A DNA stretch of 64,000 nucleotides from Proales similis (taxonomy: Eukaryota; Rotifera; Eurotatoria; Ploima; Proalidae). Location of the stretch: positions 1,240,001 through 1,304,000 of the forward strand of contig JAGVRJ010000005.1 in assembly GCA_019059635.1 (NCBI GenBank), in the 5' to 3' direction. Each line of letters opens with the position of its first letter. Position 1 is the stretch's first letter. Made by a program: the position numbers and the translations under genes. The notes under the pieces were generated by a model that was not told where the DNA came from, made no database searches, and saw only the letters and a program-made list of their open reading frames with translations. Positions 11,311 to 58,182 of this stretch are shown here, in pieces.

Positions 11311-14300
11311 TCATCTTATGTGAACTGTGAAAAGGCCCTTGAGAATCTTGCAGCTGTTGAGGGTCTCAAAGTCGTTCGGTCGGTAGAACGGCTTTCCGTC
11401 ATCGTCTACATAAATGTAACTGAAACAGAAAAGTTTAGCCTGTTTGAGAACAAAAGGCCCAATCAGAGGGCGTGTGAAAGTGATGCTCACGGCAAACGAA
11501 GCACCCAGATGCTGTTGTCCCGTAGGGCGATGCGATGTTGGTGCGATGGAAAGAATATGGGCGCGTTTGGAGCCGGCTTAACTTGAGCTTCGACGCAAAA
11601 CTCAAACACCAGTTCGCTTTTAGAGCTCGGCGCGCTCAGCGATGACTCAATTGACTTGTTTATTAGCGACATGGGCGGTGTGACAATCCAGGCGCGCATC
11701 ATTTGTGCCATGAACGGCGTTGAATCCTTACCGCGACAAGGGCAAGCCATGTAGAGAGGCATGTCGGTGTTTATCAGCTTGTACGCGTCGTCTCTAACCG
11801 AGCCGTTGGTGGAAAGCTTTACAAGTCTGTCAGGGCCAGAACTAATGAATCGGTGTCCACACGGACATTCGTACTCCATGCCAATGAAAGCTCTGACCGG
11901 GAAGCCTTCAATCGACTTGCGCTGTTTTTCCGTGAATATGCTCTGGATGCCCGAGGCGCCCAGATAAACATCCCACGGCACGAGGAAGTTGTGATTACTT
12001 ATGAAACCTGGCTGCAGGAGACCAACGCCAGTTTCATAGTCTTGATATCGCCCCACCGACACAAGCGACCAAGAGCTAAACTCAGGCAAGTGGCCCGGCG
12101 GACAGTTGGCATTCAACATTCCTTTGATAGGCCGCGACTCGTTTATGTCCGCCTCGTTTTGATTGCTGTTCTGATCGGAATCATTCGTATGACCACTGCT
12201 ACTCTGTGCCGAGGCCTTCTCCTCTAAAGCTTGCTCGCCCGCGATCGGCGACGGAAACGCAGTTTCGACCGCGTTTGCTCTACTTGACTGAAACTGACTG
12301 GGTGCCTCTTGACTCAGATCGTCCACTTCGTTGCTCAGCTCGTTCAGGGCAAATGATTCGCTCAATTTTGACCGGGAGCGAATCGCTGAACTGCTGAAGC
12401 TCTCGTCGTCTACTCTGCTACTCGTCGGCTTGAACACCGGAAACAGGTAGCGGTTCAGAATTCTCACTCTGTCCTCTTCTTGTTTGAAGTCCTCGTAAAA
12501 CGTGAAATTGGCACTTTTCAAGTCAAACGGGTCCTTAAATCAGGAATGAAGCGTCCATAATCCCAATCGATGCAAGATTTGAGATTCAAGTTTACTTTTC
12601 GATCTCTTTGAAGCTGACCACAATTGCTCGCCGCTCTCGTCACAATTCCGGAGCTGTGCGTCTTGACAGGAATGAACAAGTCGCGCTCTGTGTCCGATCT
12701 GCGACTGCTCGAGCTGCTCTTGCTCATTCGATCAGAGCGCAGGCCCCGCATAGAAGAACGAGCCGTGTGCAATGAGTCAGAATCGATCAAATCAACATCT
12801 TGCTCCTCAGCCCCTGCATGTCTGAGGTTGTCTTTGGTCACTCGATGAAACGAACTCACACATCGATGTCCCGTCAAGCTAACGGCCTCGCACGCCTGCC
12901 TGCCATTCTTCCAAATATTCTCGCACTGATCGACCAATTTGTTCAAATAGCTGTTGTACATTGGCCCTCTAGCCTGCATTCTATACATTTCGATTGCTCG
13001 TTTAAGCTAGAAAATAAAAATTGACTTCAACAATCGATCAGACAATAATCGGCCTTGACTCACTCGTTGCTCGTGCTGCTCTCGGTTGTAATGATTTGGA
13101 AGGTTTTCTTCATAAGAGCTGAGTGCGAGCGGGATAATCTTTCGGCAGCGATTCTCCGAGAATCGAACGTCAACGTCTATACAGTTCTTGAGCTGCGCAT
13201 GAATCGACTGTAGCTTCGAATTCTTTGTGGTCTTGAACAGTAGCCGCCAGAGGGCGAGCGCGCTCGCCTGCCAAGTATCAAATGCCGGCCGAATGAACAC
13301 CTGTGAAACATTCACACGGCTCAGATTGTCGTCGAAGCCTTCGTCAAGCGCTTTTCTGATGTGAATGCTAACGAAACGCCTAAATCTCTCTGAATCGTTT
13401 CGCTCGGTGTTGCCCATCTCCTCCAGTTTTGCCGTGTCTTGATTGCATAGCGCCATCATAAATTCAACTTGACGGTTTGAATTCGATCGCTTCAAATGAA
13501 CATAAACAAACTCTTGATTGGCCGGAATGGCGAACAACGAATTGGCACTGGAGCGAAAAGGTCAACTGATGAACACATGAGCTGTTAGCTCTCGCTCAAT
13601 TTACCTTGTGTTTGTAATTACGTGCGACTTTTTCAGAACGTCGTAAATTTGATCTTCGAGCGAATGCTGATAGTTCTTAATCTTTGAGAATTAAATTAAA
13701 GAGAGAAAACAGGAGAGAGAGAGAGAGGATGAGAGCGATTACGGTCACATCATCGTTCACGTTTATTTCTAGCGGACAAGAGTCGAACGAGAACAGAAGC
13801 CTTGGCGAGCATGGCCGTCCTGCACTGAGCCACTCTTTGGGCAGTGAGATTTCAATTGTCTTCAATGCGTCACTGATCAATGGAAGAAGCTGGCTGCGAG
13901 CAGTGTCCACCAAGCGCAGCATTTTAACCAAGTTTACGTCCAGATCACTGCTCGGATTGGAGATCTATGCAAAATTTCTAGATTATTCGTTCGTCCGATC
14001 GATCAAAGATGCTCACTATGATCAGGTGGGAAATTGAGAATATCAACAGGAGGCTTTTAATTGCTTTGATCTGTTCACTTTCCCATAGATCGAAAAAGTT
14101 CTTTTTTCAAGAAATCTAATTTAAAGAGAGACAAGTCGACACCAAGGTATAGAAGGCACTTGCGATTAACATACTTCGTCCGGTCTAGTCTGAAACAGTT
14201 CACAGAGTACGTGCGTGTCGTGAATGGACTCATGGTGAAGATAGACAACTTGCGAGCCCACATCATGGTAGATACTGATTCCCAGCTCCTTTAGAAGCAG

Positions 14301-36270: not shown

Positions 36271-37422
36271 ATGAGAAAAATGAGTTTGCTTCAGCCAGAG
36301 ATATTGCGAATCGGCAAAAAACGATATCGACGAAATCCACGCAGTTTAGACTTTAACCAGGCGTCTTCCAAAGCGAAGGAATTCATTCAGCAAGAAGATG
36401 AAGAAGATGACGAGTTTAATATACCAGACTCGGTCCGAGTGCCGTACGATGAAGATGAGCCTTGCGATTTTAAAATGCATGCAAGTGAAAGGCCAGACGA
36501 TGAAATCGACGACGAGCATGATTCGGAAATAGAAACGGCAAGCAATGGGACCTATCGACTCACAATTCAAGCGTCTGAGGAATATTTTGGTTTAATAATC
36601 GGCAAAGGTGGCGAATCTAAGCGGCGCCTTGAACGAGACACGTCTACTCGCATTCGAGTCGCTCCGAAAGGCAAAGGAGACTGGATAACAATTGAAAGCA
36701 AGCAGAAATCTGCGATTGTTTCTTGCCGCACTCGGCTCAATCTCATGATAATGAACTCTCGCCTTCAACGTCCATTCAATTACTTTCTGAGTATTCCTTT
36801 GAACGCTGAGAATATAAAGCAGAATTTTATGTCGTTCAAAGCTGGTGTGCTCGCTGAGTGCTCCCAAGAGCGTGGCCTTGATGAGCGAATATTTCAAAAT
36901 CCGAACAAGCTTCATTTGACCATCTGCACTTTGAACTTGTTCGGAAAGTTTGAGCTACAAGAGGCAGTTGAGCGTCTTATGGAAGCAGAGCAGACCAAAG
37001 TGCAAGAAATATTGGACCAAAAGCCCATCCAGATTCAGCTCAGAGGCCTCGAGTATATGAACGACGACCCGAGTGAGGTGGACGTTCTTTACGCCAAGGT
37101 CGAATCTAATCAACTGCAAAAACTGGAGGCTATTTGCAACATGCTGATGCGACTATTTGTCGACGCTGGCTTTAGTAAAAAGCAATTTGAAAGAGTCAAA
37201 ATACACGCCACCCTGTTGAACACAAAGTTCAGATCGAAACAAAACGAACAGGGCAAACCGACTGAGGCACGTCAGTCATTTGATGCGCGCAAAATTCTTC
37301 AATTATTTGAAAATTACGACTTTGGCTATTTGAATCTGAGCCACATCGAGCTGTCGGTGCGACACACCACGGCTACAAACGGTTTCTATCAGTCGGTCGC
37401 TTCAATCAATCTTTCTCCGTAG
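36271..37422 (+). CDS. ascc1: ASCC1, activating signal cointegrator 1 complex subunit 1
   Basis: Single-exon CDS of 383 codons from an ATG at 36271. The N-terminus MRKMSLLQPEILRIGKKRYRR matches the family start. An acidic linker (QEDEEDDEFN) leads into a KH domain at about 92-150 with the GxxG loop in IIGKGGESKRRLE. The rest is a 2H phosphoesterase/LigT-like domain with both HxT motifs: HLTI in NKLHLTICTL and HATL in VKIHATLLNTKF. ASCC1 partners ASCC2/ASCC3 in alkylation-damage repair and transcription co-activation; the 2H domain suggests RNA end or cyclic-phosphate chemistry. Both catalytic motifs and the KH loop are intact. Length is close to human ASCC1. No introns, unlike most neighbours. 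Confidence 0.94.
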   Translation: MRKMSLLQPEILRIGKKRYRRNPRSLDFNQASSKAKEFIQQEDEEDDEFNIPDSVRVPYDEDEPCDFKMHASERPDDEIDDEHDSEIETASNGTYRLTIQASEEYFGLIIGKGGESKRRLERDTSTRIRVAPKGKGDWITIESKQKSAIVSCRTRLNLMIMNSRLQRPFNYFLSIPLNAENIKQNFMSFKAGVLAECSQERGLDERIFQNPNKLHLTICTLNLFGKFELQEAVERLMEAEQTKVQEILDQKPIQIQLRGLEYMNDDPSEVDVLYAKVESNQLQKLEAICNMLMRLFVDAGFSKKQFERVKIHATLLNTKFRSKQNEQGKPTEARQSFDARKILQLFENYDFGYLNLSHIELSVRHTTATNGFYQSVASINLSP

Positions 37423-37646
37423 TCGTCGATTTTGTTGTTTTCTTTTGTTCATCAGAAATAAACCCGCCTCCAAAAAAGAAAGTTTTGTTTTAATTTTAAT
37501 AACTTATCGAATCAAAAGCGATTACTGATAAGCGCTGGTGAAAAAAACGTGAACTGGCACGCCTGTAAACTTGCCATCTGGAGTTTGACTATTCGACTCG
37601 GCCAAATTAAAAGGCCTTCAAATGATCTAGACGAATATATTGCGAA

Positions 37647-38925
37647 ATGAAGCTTTCTTCGTTTGTTTTTATTGCGCTCGGATTGATCTCTGTGGCGAAC
37701 GCTTGGGATCACAGTGACCTGGAAAGTGCTATCCACGAGCTGAACGCCAATCCAGAAGCCCTACTCGATTTTGAAAACAATATCAAGGAACTGCTTGAAA
37801 CCGAGCCCAACTATTTCAATTACACGCCATTTGTCTCTCATGACTACAAGTTTCAATGCAATGTGAGCAATGCTGAGGCTGAACCTGCCACTTCAGTTCA
37901 TCGTCTGAGACCAAGTGACATTAAAGTGGTAGCCGCTTTGGGTGACAGTTTGACTGCTTCGCTTGGCAGTCAGGCACGAACAGTGATTGGCCTTCTGATT
38001 GAGTATAGATCACATTCTTGGTCTATCGGTGGTCACAAGTATCTTGAAAACACAGTCACAGTGCCCAACATATTGAGAAAGTTCAACCCGAATCTGGTTG
38101 GCTTTTCGACAAGCACCGACATTATGTTTTTGACCAAGAAAGGAGTCGGTCTAAACGTGGCCGTTTCTGGTCAAGAAGCCAACCACTTGCCGGCTCAGGC
38201 CGAAATACTGCTCAAGCGAATGAAAGCCGACAAGCGGATTGATTTCGAAAACGACTGGAAACTCGTCACTTTGTTCATTGGTGGCAATGACATCTGCGAC
38301 TATTGCAAGAACAAGAATCTTCATTCACCAAATCAATACTTGAACGATATTCAAACGGCCCTTGACCTTTTATACAAAGAAATGCCTCGAACATTGGTGA
38401 ACCTTGTCACTGTTCTTAAGGCCACACAAGTGAAGCATCTAAACAAAGGCCTCATTTGCAGCTTCCTTCATCGTCGAGTGTGCGAATGCGCAGCCTATCC
38501 CAAAACAGCCGAAGACGAGGCGGAACTGGAACGCATTGAAACTGAATATCAAAATCTTTCCGAGCAATTGGTTGCCTCGGGCCGATATGAGGGTCGTAAC
38601 GATTTCACGGTGGTGGTGCAGCCGACGTTCAAAGACAAAGGACTTCAATACAAGCCGAACGGCAAAATTGATTATTCTTATTTCGCGCCCGATTGTTTCC
38701 ATTTGTCTTCGAAAGGACACGGTAAGAATCAAATTGATTAAGATAATGCACCACGATTAGCGAAACACGAATTTGTTTTCATTTTAAGCTGCGGCAGCCG
38801 TGGGTTTGTGGAACAATATGCTCCAACCGGTCGGCAAGAAAGCAACTACCTGGGGAAATGAGGAGAAGATCCTTTGCCCGACAAACGAGCGCCCATACAT
38901 ATTCACTAATCTAAATTCAAACTAG
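37647..38925 (+). CDS. Phospholipase B1-like secreted GDSL lipase/esterase
   Basis: Two exons, 37647-38721 and 38789-38925, join in phase to 403 residues. Signal peptide MKLSSFVFIALGLISVANA. All SGNH/GDSL hydrolase blocks are present: block I VAALGDSLTASLG with the nucleophile Ser at about residue 99, block II VAVSGQEANHLPAQ, block III LFIGGNDICDYC with its Asn, and block V APDCFHLSSKGH with the Asp-His pair. Further PLB1 features are LRPSDIKVVAALGDS and the C-terminal NERPYIFT. Animal PLB1-type enzymes hydrolyse dietary and membrane glycerolipids. Vertebrate PLB1 has four tandem repeats and a membrane anchor; this protein is a single repeat without an anchor, so it is probably a soluble secreted esterase. 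Confidence 0.93.
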
Positions 38926-45892: not shown

Positions 45893-46359
45893 ACATTCCT
45901 ACTTGGTCTTTAACAAAAAAATATTAAAAACCAAAGCAGCCTTCAGATCGTATTTTTAATTTGATCTGGAAAATAAAAGCTTTTGATGCGCAATTAGGTA
46001 TAATTGTTTCTATATTTGGCAACCAAGTCAAGATCGATAGGAGCAGTTTGATAAGAGCGCGTCGCCTCGCAAAAAAATACTGCGGCTCGAGGATAACGTC
46101 TTATCAATAGACGAGCGAGAGGGCCACATGTATGTTTCGAGAGAGAGAGAGAGAAAAAAAGAATGCAGAGGTGGGCACAAGCGTAAAAAGAGAACGAGTG
46201 ATAAAATCGTGCTTTAGAATCAGCTAAACCGAGACTCGTCATTTTAACATTATGGTTAAATGAGCCAGTCCCTCTTTCGATTGGTTTTGTTTTCGTGACT
46301 CATTCGAACCAACAAACAATTTTAGAATAAAAAACAGCTTGAAGGAGTCTAATTTAAAC

Positions 46360-47139
46360 ATGACAGCTTCTTCGGGCGTAAACAGCATTGAGCTTATACT
46401 CGTTGACGATCGAGTTCTCAGGCGGCGCGAAGTGAAGCATTGCCGGTCAAATCAACGTTTAAAGCTTACAATAGCCTCGAAACAATGGGCCGAGAATTCA
46501 AGCGTCAAAGTATCGACTCATCATTCCAGTGTGATTGTTAAGAACAACACTGCATCTGTAAAAGCAAGTGAGCGCGGCCTGGTAGCCTATTTCAACAACC
46601 TTCGATTAGTTGGTCGGTCCGGTCGAGGTTAGCTAATATTTCCCATCAAGACTCAAAGCTCCAGACTAATTCTGAGCTAAAGGAAACATGATTGACCTTC
46701 ACATTCAAGTTGAATATGAAGGCAGCAGAAAAATGTTCATCTATGAGAAAGCGATCAAAGTTACGGTAGACGGGCCTCGCAAGCCTCGTGGTAAACGCTC
46801 AATATGCGGTTGATATCTAAAACATAATTAAAGTCAATAAAAAAATTAACTAGGGCAAAAGGACGCAGCCATGCGAGTTGAAAGAGCCGGTTCCTTGTGT
46901 AAGTTAACTAAGATTGCTTGATTAGTTCTGGGCTTGTTGTCTAACTGTCGATTATTTCCTGGCCAGCATCAGGTGATGACGAAGCAATCAGTCAGTTTCA
47001 AGAGTCGAAGAGTAAGGCTCTTGAGTATCTTAAGGCGCTATTGGACAAGTGTCAAACTGAACAAGATCGAATGTTCATGGAGAACTACGCCGAAATGGTG
47101 GCCATTGAGTTGATGAAAAGCAGAAACAAACAAGTTTGA
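46360..47139 (+). CDS. Small Runt-domain transcription factor, copy 1
   Basis: Exons 46360-46627, 46683-46790, 46854-46898 and 46967-47139 join in phase to 197 residues. A divergent Runt domain spans about residues 25-127. The N-terminal strands are hard to align, but the signature AYFNNLRLVGRSGRGN and the C-terminal block YEKAIKVTVDGPRKPR match Runx proteins. The DNA-contacting Arg residues of LRxVGRSGRG and the Lys/Thr/Asp/Arg of KVTVDGPR are all present, so DNA binding is expected. After the domain there are only about 70 residues: a short linker and a helix (QFQESKSKALEYLKALLDKC). There is no VWRPY Groucho-binding tail and no transactivation region. It forms a tandem pair with the gene at 47970. 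Confidence 0.88.
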
Positions 47140-47751
47140 GCGAATTCAAGTCAAATTTCGCTCTGCGATCGACAATATTGTGATTTAATCTTTGAAATTT
47201 GTAGTTTTTCTAGAGATTTGCCTCCCTTTCTCTGTAGTCCCTTAAATAGCATGCGGGTAAAATGTGTGCAGTTCTAGCCGTGAAAAATTGGCGCGCATGG
47301 TGTCCTTAGTAAAAGGCGATTCAATGTTTTCAATGCAATTTGAGTAAAGTGTAAACCCCAAATTAAAAGCCTGTTTCAATTATGGAAAGGGGAAATGTTT
47401 TTAAAGAAAAGAAATTGTTGTGCTCCTAGCTCGGTCGGGCTCTGCATTACGGAGTCCAATCTGAATTGAAACTCAAACGTCAGGATTGGTGACTCCTTTT
47501 TTCAATTAAGGCCACTTGCGTCATTCGCTAGTTTGATTACTGCTGGTTTTGTGCCAACCCGTTGGTTACCACTCATATTTTTGTAGCCGTTCTGCCCACC
47601 TCCCATCTTGGTTCGCAACTGATTAGATTTCAAACCCTTAATTTGCAAACTATTTCCCTTTTTATGAAATGTTCATTCCTGAGCCTTTATTATATGCTAA
47701 ACACACGAATTCTGTGGTTGGGCCGAGCAATATCTGACATAGAGATAGAGC

Positions 47752-47784
<33 letters not shown>

Positions 47785-47969
47785 AAATTTATCAAAATTG
47801 TCAAGGTGATACTGCCCACACGTTCTCTTACATTTCTTGATGTCGCTTAGGCGTAGATAAAACTTGTCCCTACTTCACCTAATTAAGAGTCTTATAAATA
47901 TAAGTCTGTAGCTGAATATAACCAACTCTAGCTTAAATTGGCAATATTCTAGTAAACCAAGTAAACCTG
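47140..47969. other. Spacer between the two Runt-domain genes
   Basis: 830 nt containing a (TG)n tract at 47753-47783. It should hold the 3' end of copy 1 and the promoter of copy 2. Open frame 47562-47840 runs through the TG repeat and is not credible. Confidence 0.5.
47753..47783. repeat. (TG)n microsatellite
   Basis: About 31 nt of uninterrupted TG between the paired Runt genes. Confidence 0.92.
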
Positions 47970-48701
47970 ATGCGCAGCATGCAAATCACAGACCTTGTAT
48001 CACTCGGCACCGGTGATGTGAAATGCACAAAACTAGACATTCATGTGCGAAAAGGAAAGAGAGTCACTTTTCGCGTCTACGCGCCAAGTTTACGTCAGCT
48101 GGAGCTGCCTGTCACTCTTTCGGCTTTTACGCACTCAACAACCAGAGCGTCAATTCAAAATGGCCAAACTATGATGAGGAACGGAGTTGCGCACTTCTCT
48201 AATCTTCGATTTCAAAACTCGTCCGGAAGAGGTTTTCCTAAATTTCCGCCCCTTTTTACTTTTCCATAAGAAGAATGACCACACGCTAGGATCCAAATTT
48301 GACCTTCATGTCACCATTCACACATCTACACCTACCACTTATATCTATCCGCACGCCATCAAAGTAACTGTGGACGGCCCGAGGCCTCCTCGTCGATGTA
48401 AATTATTTCAGATTCATGCATTCTTTTTTTTAATTTTATAAATTTTCTTTTAGTGCAGAGAGCCAACTTTCACGAGTCAATAGAGTCAAGCTCTTCAAGT
48501 GTCGCAGAGCCGGCAAATGTCTCTAGTTCGCCGTCAACCGTCCAGTCGTCTGAGGCTAGTCTCTCTCGGCCTGATTCTCAAACAGACTTCAATCTTCCGC
48601 CTAATTTTCAAATGAGCGCTGCAGAGAATTCACCGCTGAACGTTCTTCTTTTTCTCTGTTTGCGGAGCTTGGGAAATCGCTTCTACCAGCCAAATCAATG
48701 A
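47970..48701 (+). CDS. Small Runt-domain protein, copy 2 (diverged)
   Basis: Exons 47970-48231, 48290-48397 and 48454-48701 join in phase to 205 residues. A Runt domain occupies about residues 18-124: VKCTKLDIHVRKGKRVTFRV, GVAHFSNLRFQNSSGRG, SKFDLHVTIHTSTPTTYIY, HAIKVTVDGPRPPRR. Compared with the Runx consensus LRFVGRSGRG, this copy reads LRFQNSSGRG, so one DNA-contact Arg is Ser; the second Arg and the KVTVDGPR block remain. The two introns interrupting the domain sit at the same places and phase 1 as in copy 1 (after SGRG and after the PR block), which shows common ancestry. The tail is Ser/Pro-rich, about 80 residues, with no VWRPY. The first donor is the weak GTTTTC, but no other donor keeps the domain intact. 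Confidence 0.85.
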
Positions 48702-48980
48702 GTGTAGACCAATTCTAGTTATGGTCTTGGTTCGATCGGGAAGAATCTCGATAAAGGCATCCGCATCCGCAAACTAAGCGTATGAATTAAAGAAGCTGCT
48801 TGAAATTGTGCATTTCGGCTTAAATATCTACTTGGCCGTGATTAATAAGAAAGTAATAAAAATGAAAAAAAAGAGAATGTGAAATTCTATTTGCAACGTG
48901 CGCGTATTTGAAAATCGCATCTTTCTGCACTCAAATAAATTAAGTCAGAGCAAAAATCTGATTATGCATTTAGCCGAGAA

Positions 48981-50805
48981 ATGAAGCAGGACGATTTAGT
49001 TTATCTATCGCTGTTGATCGCCTCCATTCCGATCGGGCTCTTTTTCAAGACTGTTCGACTCGGCCATCGTTTCAAAGCCGTGTCGGCAAGCATTGTCGGT
49101 CTAACCCTTGTTTACCTTGTTTGTTCCACGCAAATCTGGCATTCGTTGCTGTTAAGTCTCACCAATATTCTGATCATATCGACAGTTAATGCTCGGTAGG
49201 TTAATTGAGTCCTTCCAATTAACTTTCTTTTCAATTAACAACTTTTCAAACACAAACAATATTCCGTTGCAAGATACGTTCACATAATCTCATTCATATG
49301 GTCGTTTGGCTATTTGCTCTTTTTTCGATTGACAGACTGGTTCGGAATAGCAAGGCCGATTCCGTACGCAAACGCCGTTCAGTTGATTCTGACCCTGAAG
49401 GTGAGTCACTCTGATGATGCTATTGGCACTGATTAGTCACGAGCAAGTGTTTATTGAATCATTCGCAGACCGTTGGTGCTGCGTTTGAAGTTCACGACTC
49501 ATACAGCCGAGAAAAGCAGCTTAGATCATTAGAACGACAAGGAGACAACGAGCTTAATGAAGCTAAAGTTGAAAAACTCAAATTAGAACGCAAATACTTC
49601 TCGATCAGACCAACTGCATTTGATCTGTTTTGTTACTTTTACTGTTACGTTGGAATACTAACCGGCCCATACTTCAAATTCAGCACCTACAGAGATTGGC
49701 TCGATTTCAAGCATTCAGACTCCATCAATCCGGCCAATTTCATATTTCAAAGAGCCAAGTACTTGCCGTTGGTCGCGCTTGGCTTTTGGCTACAGTCTAA
49801 GGTCGTTTCGTTCGATGTACGTTTTAGCTCGTTTAAAAAGCAAAACTTTTTCCAATCAGTTTTAATATAAACACTTTCAAGGACGCGTTGAATGACTCAT
49901 TCTATGACCATCCGCTATGGTACCGGCTCATCTACATGGTGCTCATATTCACTTTGTTCAGATTCCGATTCTATGGCGCGTGGATTATTGCCGAGTTATC
50001 CTGCATGACAGCAGGCGAGTGCTCTTTCTTCTCAACTTAAATCTTGTGACTTGATTAACACCATTTTTTGGAGCAGCCCTTGGCGCTTATCCTTCGCGAA
50101 GTAAACCGAGACCAGGCGGTGGCCCGACTGACTTGGTCGAACTTGATAAAATGTGAGCTCATAATTGAGGACCATTTGGAGAAGAACAAATCCTAGATTA
50201 CTTTCATACAGCGAAAGTGGCATGGACAAGAGCGGCGAGGAAAAGGAAAACTACGACTTTGAAGCGGTGAACAACATCGATGAGTACGGATGCGAGACAG
50301 CGCCCACGGTCAAACTTGTGCTGCACGACTGGAATATGACCGTTCAGTACTGGATGGCCAGCTATGTCTACAAGAGGGTTCCATTCAAGTCCATCGGGTA
50401 GCTTTAAGCTTTTGTTTGTAGTGGTATTTGAAGTAATCGCATGTTTCTCTAAGCCAACCGATTACAATGGCAGTGAGCGCTTATTGGCACGGCATTCACC
50501 CGGGCTATTATCTGAGCATGTTGACAACCACGCCTGGCATGATTGCCGAAGGCCTCATGGACAAGCATTTTAAACGACGCTTCCTTAAGCCCGAGCATTA
50601 CCGATACTTCAACTTTGCCACTTGGATGTTCAGATCTCGTCTATTTGACTACATGAGTATCGGTTTCATTTTGCTAAGCTACGAGCGAACAATCAAATAC
50701 TGGAGCTCTGTGTATTTCATTGGACACGTTGCATGCGCGGTCTTTATCTTAATCGGCTTGGCTCTTAGTCTAACCTCCAAGCCGAGCCGAAGCAAAAAAG
50801 AATAG
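48981..50805 (+). CDS. MBOAT7-type lysophosphatidylinositol acyltransferase
   Basis: Seven exons in phase: 48981-49195, 49274-49400, 49469-49816, 49882-50014, 50077-50152, 50197-50397, 50454-50805; 483 residues. It is a polytopic membrane-bound O-acyltransferase. Family blocks: FFRLTDWFGI, FDLFCYFYCYVGILTGPYF, FRFYGAWIIAELSCMTA, GAYPSRSKPRPGGGP, the catalytic Asn region HDWNMTVQYWMASYVYK, and the catalytic His region AVSAYWHGIHPGYYLSM. MBOAT7/LPIAT1 moves arachidonoyl chains onto lysophosphatidylinositol, remodelling PI at ER membranes. The C-terminus ends in Lys residues (SRSKKE), consistent with an ER-retrieval type tail. The intron after exon 4 starts GCGAGT, so it is a GC-AG intron. Confidence 0.94.
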
Positions 50806-57623: not shown

Positions 57624-58182
57624 ATGAATAACCGAATGACTTTGGCCGCCTTGTTGGTGCTTGGCGCTCTTTTCCTCGTCGAAGGTATTGCGAGCGTCAT
57701 GGATTGGCCAATTTGATCCAAACTTAATCGAATCTCACGTTTTAAAGCCAATCCTTTGTCTCGAGAAAACTGGACTACTGTCCAAGTCACCAATCGAGGC
57801 GCTTATGTTGCTCGATTTGAAGTGAGATACAAACTAGGCAATGGCTACCAGTCGGAGAACACTGGCACTTATCCCGGTAGACATAAGCTCTTCCTCAGCG
57901 ATTAGATCAGCAACTTTTAAGTCTTGAACTCAAGTCGGTCAATCACGCTCGATTCTTGTTCCTCCGGAGGCTACTTCGGTGATCATCAAATGCGAAAACA
58001 ACATTTTCATCAACTCTTGGTCGTCAGTCTTCACCGTTAATCTGCCACGCGCCCAAACCAAATGCTACACAATCGGAGGTAATCATCAGGAGACGAAAGC
58101 TTTTGAGGGAAATTGGTTTTCTAGTCGCGCTTTCATTTAAGGCACCACTCTTCACCCCAACTGGTCTGAGACCACCTGCTAA
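57624..58182 (+). CDS. Small secreted beta-sandwich protein (thiol-cytolysin C-terminal-like fold suspected)
   Basis: Four exons, 57624-57684, 57748-57876, 57935-58078 and 58142-58182, join in phase to 124 residues. Signal peptide MNNRMTLAALLVLGALFLVEG. The mature part is about 100 residues of alternating strands: NWTTVQVTNRGAYVARFEVR, GQSRSILVPPEATSVIIKCE, SWSSVFTVNLPRAQTKCYTI. The VTNRGAYVARFEV pattern resembles the C-terminal beta-sandwich seen at the end of cholesterol-dependent cytolysins, which also occurs alone in some invertebrate secreted proteins. No pore-forming region is present, so it is not a complete cytolysin. Two internal Cys and one near the end may form a disulphide. Function unknown. 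All introns are phase 1. AATAAA near 58212. Confidence 0.83.

Follow-up and report, generated by a model that had tools for sequence, protein, structure and literature searches.

The rotifer Proales similis carries two adjacent Runt-domain genes that make up the whole Runx set detectable in its genome, and three reductions coincide in this pair: the Groucho-binding motif is missing from both products although the genome has a Groucho gene, the searches detected no CBF-beta gene, and residues that matter for binding CBF-beta are changed. CBF-beta and Groucho are the standard Runx partners across animals. On balance we favour, with some reserve, the view that the pair forms a minimal Runx system, independent of both partners, that would still read Runx sites as a monomer. 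With neither a Groucho-recruiting tail nor a detectable partner gene, the two proteins are probably self-sufficient DNA binders and not blockers of a larger Runx.

Gene models of the Runt pair

The window analyzed was a stretch of 64,000 nucleotides of contig JAGVRJ010000005.1 with a GC content of 44.0%, in which the two genes lie side by side on the plus strand inside 2.4 kb (Table 1). The spliced products of our models comprise 192 (gene 1) and 205 (gene 2) amino acids. The initial annotation had the adjacency, the strand, the Runt assignment and the 205 residues of gene 2 right, while its 197 residues for gene 1 became 192 in the present model. All five modelled introns (5/5) are bounded by GT..AG, and both genes have one phase-1 intron following SGRG and another directly behind VDGPRxPR. 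A codon-use model built from 13 long open frames of the window, which are not verified genes, favored the annotated frame of each spliced gene over the two other forward frames, and over 500 of 500 base shuffles as well, which is a lenient control since shuffles also create stops. The coding signal extends over both tails. Taken exon by exon, gene 2 exon 2 failed to outscore one of the other frames, and gene 1 exon 3, with its 30 bases, was uninformative.

Table 1. Exons of the two Runt genes (positions in the window)
Feature	Position	Strand	Content
Gene 1 exon 1	46360..46627	+	N-terminal Runt part to SGRG, phase-1 end; HCRSNQRL within
Gene 1 exon 2	46683..46790	+	C-terminal Runt part to VDGPRKPR
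Gene 1 exon 3	46869..46898	+	30 bases; the least secure exon of the model
Gene 1 exon 4	46967..47139	+	Tail, predicted two-helix hairpin, stop; no VWRPY
Gene 2 exon 1	47970..48231	+	N-terminal Runt part to SGRG, phase-1 end
Gene 2 exon 2	48290..48397	+	C-terminal Runt part, VDGPRPPRR
Gene 2 exon 3	48454..48701	+	Serine-rich tail (22% S), stop; no VWRPY

Against the Pfam Runt profile (cut-off 27 bits) gene 2 scored 75.4 bits over residues 6-123 and gene 1 61.8 bits over residues 57-126 only, that is, over the second half of the profile. The first half of the gene 1 domain, left unscored by Pfam, contains HCRSNQRL, identical to the HWRSNKTL of Runx proteins in 5 of 8 residues, a likeness reached by 0.4% of 20,000 shuffles of the first 60 residues. 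Comparison with PDB sequences (E up to 1) gave 17 distinct matches to solved RUNX structures for each gene, the best of them at E 2e-11 (gene 1) and E 2e-17 (gene 2).

Intron 2 of gene 1 (46791-46868) contains ATTAAA at 46827 and AATAAA at 46836; read-through would end the protein at PRKPRGKRSICG, leaving a nearly bare Runt domain, and a short isoform of gene 1 may arise in this way. Exons of an MBOAT acyltransferase (window 48960-50805, plus strand) follow directly downstream of gene 2, and the other neighbors are an AKAP7-like/KH protein, a GDSL lipase and a Smg8/Smg9 piece (36271-37422 (+), 37626-38741 (+), 11487-12539 (-)).

The C-terminal WRPY motif for Groucho, which is usual in Runx proteins without being universal, is absent from both protein models. 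Searching all six frames of the window for [VILMFA]W[RK][PS][YFW] returned a single match, AWRSF at 57659, and none in place; under looser criteria, 45893-48960 yielded one WRAW with stops behind it and no VWRPY motif in place. No VWRPY-bearing exon extending either gene was seen in these sequence scans of the locus. The lack of VWRPY in both genes, proposed in the initial annotation, was borne out by the models and the six-frame scans, and its description of the pair as minimal VWRPY-less Runt genes in tandem agrees with the gene models, the Pfam Runt scores and the motif scans.

The two tails differ in composition. For the last exon of gene 1 the best predicted model, a two-helix hairpin obtained from single-sequence input, reached a pLDDT of 90.6 with a pTM of 0.53, and the other four models had mean pLDDT values of 79.0-83.2. 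A PDB fold search with the predicted tail gave no match, and against Pfam the tail reached 16.6 bits with EFR3_ARM, below the cut-off of 27.6. The hairpin may be a partner-binding module.

Absence of WRPY alone is not rare among database Runx proteins: [WF][RK]PY was missing from the last ten residues of 70 of the 228 Runt proteins compared, many of which are fragments or isoforms. Drosophila Runt without WRPY is reported to keep part of its ftz activity and to lose its Sxl activity (PMC7341146); so some Runx targets can be controlled without Groucho. The protein databases also contain short Runx proteins with an internal LWRP (P0045, P0107, P0121 and P0138, 218-252 AA), two cestode Runt records that do not end in WRPY (P0049, 479 AA, and P0095, 461 AA; unchecked gene models), and a 250-AA record from the shrimp Palaemon carinicauda (P0004) with most of the Runt domain twice in tandem, possibly a gene-model artefact.

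Other Runx genes and partner genes in the assembly

We searched the whole assembly, 32,716,893 bases in 15 contigs, with four Runx queries. The Pfam Runt profile gave 4 matches, all within genes 1 and 2; with a canonical Runx from abalone (P0071) there were 3, all in the pair; gene 1 and gene 2 gave 4 matches each, all of them exons of the pair. No full-length Runx was detected with any of these queries. RunxI, a profile of the C-terminal part of Runx, had a single match, below its cut-off, on C6 (E 0.087). Genes 1 and 2 account for all above-cut-off or mutual matches. Any canonical Runx copy should score far above the divergent genes 1 and 2. The published completeness figure of the assembly is 95.7 (PMC11954553), so a further Runx in the missing part is possible. 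The initial annotation had counted it against its reading if these were the only Runx genes, of ordinary length; they do appear to be the only ones, and their length is not ordinary. Linkage of Runx to Supt3h was also looked for and not seen: TFIID-18kDa matches lie on C3, and two further, sub-cut-off ones on C5 are ~0.7 Mb from the Runx pair.

The Pfam CBF_beta profile gave 0 candidates in the genome at thresholds of E 0.001 and E 10, in a search run without a positive control. Human CBF-beta as query produced a single weak match of 47 residues (E 0.168, C10:1340579-1340716), covering about 40 residues inside a 232-residue frame. Against Pfam this frame matched ATPgrasp_N at E 0.029, below the cut-off, and CBF_beta at 12.9 bits, where the cut-off is 25; its best matches in the PDB were 12 sequences, all CBF-beta and all over the same segment (E 0.033-0.087). 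Only the first 36-43 residues of CBF-beta are represented, and the remainder is absent from the frame. We judged the match to be due to chance, given its ATP-grasp-like character, its sub-cut-off scores and the missing rest of CBF-beta; it is the one search result that stands against CBF-beta absence. The CBF-beta gene of C. elegans has introns, and therefore a split, diverged CBF-beta could be missed here. Taken together, CBF-beta is likely absent from P. similis. Among the matches listed in open-licence literature we found no study of natural CBF-beta gene loss.

Groucho, in turn, is present in the genome: TLE_N matched on C2 at E 6e-40, and the frame runs on into what by eye is an apparent WD40 start.

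Contact residues, introns and relatives

The Runt domains of genes 1 and 2 were aligned with 24 canonical Runx proteins and with 12 of the 14 proteins of a metagenome clade, here called CTKL (P0132 and P0134 were left out). For the 11 DNA-contact residues taken from PMC11345852, gene 1 keeps 11/11 and gene 2 10/11, with R139 replaced by S. Other positions conserved in at least 90% of the 24 canonical proteins are kept at 19/42 in gene 1 and 23/42 in gene 2, a lower retention than that of the DNA contacts (Fisher p 0.00057 and 0.022, respectively). At 80% conservation the corresponding figures were 23/51 and 26/51, with Fisher p 0.00046 and 0.012.

Three residues important for CBF-beta binding are changed in both genes. 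G108, found in 23/24 canonical proteins, is replaced by H (gene 1) and F (gene 2); N109, present in 24/24 canonical and 12/12 CTKL-clade proteins, by H and T, respectively; T149, present in 17/24 canonical proteins, by H in both genes. N109 and T149 have been tied to CBF-beta binding (PMC11345852). The alignment through positions 108-113 is ungapped for gene 2 and gapped for gene 1. Of nine CBF-beta positions taken from papers N109 alone is near-invariant, so the putative loss of the interface is argued mainly from G108, N109 and T149. The sea urchin Runt mutant G115R is reported to keep DNA binding, to lose CBF-beta binding and still to rescue cell survival (PMC1395345), and its G115 is aligned here, from the sequence printed in that paper, to G108. 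Full-length sea urchin SpRunt-1 alone binds DNA poorly.

The primordial Runx gene has been inferred to possess three introns, one inside the Runt domain and the next at its end (PMC2674455), and according to PMC2527000 the first intron is conserved and the second Runt exon measures 105 bp in every deuterostome Runx gene described. In both genes of P. similis this exon is 108 bp, in gene 1 by one extra residue and in gene 2 by a donor one codon further. As both positions are ancestral Runx introns, they may be common to any two Runx genes, and sharing them says nothing about the date of the pair. The initial annotation had read the shared phase-1 introns as a sign of tandem duplication; they are indeed shared, and we dismissed them as evidence of duplication, which is left unsupported. 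The two Runt domains are 34% identical over 110 positions. The Runt-domain phylogeny proposed at that stage was built, and sisterhood of genes 1 and 2 was neither shown nor rejected in it (AU p 0.492). Their end branches were 4.66 and 3.84, respectively, about 20 times the median of 0.19, and gene 2 joined the CTKL clade at 81/67, a placement flagged as a long-branch meeting.

The CTKL set (P0016, P0046 and P0124-P0135) has CT[KR]LP[DE]F in place of the CSxLPxHW / HWRSNK region and a PRPPR end. CTKL and PRPPR also occur in gene 2, and the two long members, P0016 (328 AA) and P0046 (408 AA), do not end in WRPY, as in the pair. In contrast to the pair, the clade keeps N109 throughout, and its placement with gene 2 is weak. 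The clade may be related to the P. similis genes. Position 149 is Y or F in 12/12 aligned members, and the CBF-beta contact of the clade may be altered too. The short members are mostly open frames in which the Runt domain runs uninterrupted across SGRG and a stop follows soon after PRPPR, and from this layout they may be without intron 1. Pattern searches for CTKL-clade DNA in viral and genome contigs returned 16 and 87 matching stretches, none of which was confirmed, and no rotifer Runt protein was found among the matches listed in protein searches (3; 120 of 1920; 120 of 404). By eye the gene 2 tail seemed to end in a motif common to P0016 and P0046, but shuffles of the last 50 residues gave it no support (p 0.631 and 0.169); P0016 and P0046 compared with each other over the last 50 residues gave p 0.867. 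Shuffles of whole tails, gene 2 vs. P0016 and P0046, gave p 0.037 and 0.056, with serine-rich aligned stretches.

Alternative readings and known Runx systems

In the reading that we favor, the DNA-reading surface of the Runt domain has been retained, and the CBF-beta surface, the long regulatory tail and VWRPY have been lost. Both proteins would bind Runx-type sites as monomers. Full-length SpRunt-1 binds poorly by itself, and DNA binding survives mutation of the Runt domain at the glycine that contacts CBF-beta, so CBF-beta could have become dispensable once a self-inhibiting tail was lost. Transcriptional output would be produced by site occupancy, by partners at the same enhancer or through the short tails, and not through Groucho. 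Besides the limits of the CBF-beta search and the gaps in the gene 1 alignment, two features speak against this reading: gene 2 has lost the DNA contact R139, and the long end branches could equally fit decaying genes. Decay itself, in which the pair would be Runx remnants under relaxed selection and heading to loss, would account for these branches, for the loss of R139 and for the disappearance of half of the near-invariant positions; yet the frames are open, all five splice pairs are canonical, codon use is coding-like including the tails and the DNA contacts are preferentially retained, and we regard it as quite improbable.

The pair might instead work as an ordinary heterodimer with a strongly diverged CBF-beta that escaped detection and evolved in step with the altered Runt surface. 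Reciprocal changes in Runt and CBF-beta have been reported from Nematostella (PMC2527000), and the weak C10 match and the uncontrolled CBF-beta search would fit such a partner. We give this only a small chance, as the CBF_beta profile found no candidate even at the most permissive threshold while very divergent Runt exons were detected, and the C10 frame, with its weak ATP-grasp N-terminal match, holds no more than the beginning of CBF-beta. A division of labor, with both proteins at the same sites and different or opposite outputs via their differing tails, one limiting the other, agrees with the DNA contacts kept for the most part in both and with the contrast between a predicted hairpin (best pLDDT 90.6) and a serine-rich tail. 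It seems unlikely all the same, for the hairpin was predicted from one sequence, the other four models scored lower, and the tail has neither a PDB fold match nor a Pfam similarity above cut-off. The initial annotation had proposed that the pair could compete with a full-length Runx for DNA or CBF-beta. Short VWRPY-less proteins that retain DNA contacts would indeed occupy sites without recruiting Groucho; nevertheless, neither a full-length Runx nor CBF-beta was detected and the CBF-beta-contact residues are changed, so both forms of the proposal are unsupported and competition is highly improbable.

Minimal, partner-independent Runx genes of the kind we favor can be set beside several known systems. 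RUNX1-3 and Drosophila runt and lozenge share with the pair the Runt domain, the DNA contacts and both conserved intron positions, whereas the P. similis proteins are far shorter, have no WRPY, a changed CBF-beta surface, no detected CBF-beta and extreme branches. AmqRunx of the sponge Amphimedon queenslandica likewise lacks WRPY despite a genomic Groucho and has the four-exon layout of gene 1, but it carries a long Ser/Pro/Thr-rich C-terminal domain (PMC2674455). In sponges, CBF-beta and the Runt surface for it are described as conserved, unlike in P. similis, and for the Runx of the sponge Oscarella, with a changed surface, it has been proposed that it possibly does not bind CBF-beta (both in PMC2527000). 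Leech and planarian paralogues are also spiralian Runx proteins without terminal WRPY; in these species the other paralogue is described as keeping it (PMC2674455), whereas in P. similis neither does. Runt genes stand side by side in arthropod clusters too, which span about 70-330 kb in the insects covered by PMC2631020 vs. 2.4 kb here. Among the matches listed in open-licence literature we found no study of rotifer Runx genes. Tandem Runt genes, Runx proteins without WRPY and Runx proteins suspected not to bind CBF-beta were each known before; the coincidence of the three reductions is the unusual part.

As a tentative extension, which we consider possible, a bilaterian lineage including the rotifer and perhaps part of the CTKL clade would have lost both CBF-beta and the Groucho link in every Runx, with the bare Runt domain binding DNA alone as the loss of the tail allowed. 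An animal that keeps the Runx DNA contacts and has neither the Groucho motif nor a detectable CBF-beta would separate the ancient Runx core from its added controls, and would make it testable whether CBF-beta mainly relieves inhibition by the Runx tail. If true, such a bare-Runt lineage would amount to a natural experiment in the capacities of a lone Runt domain.
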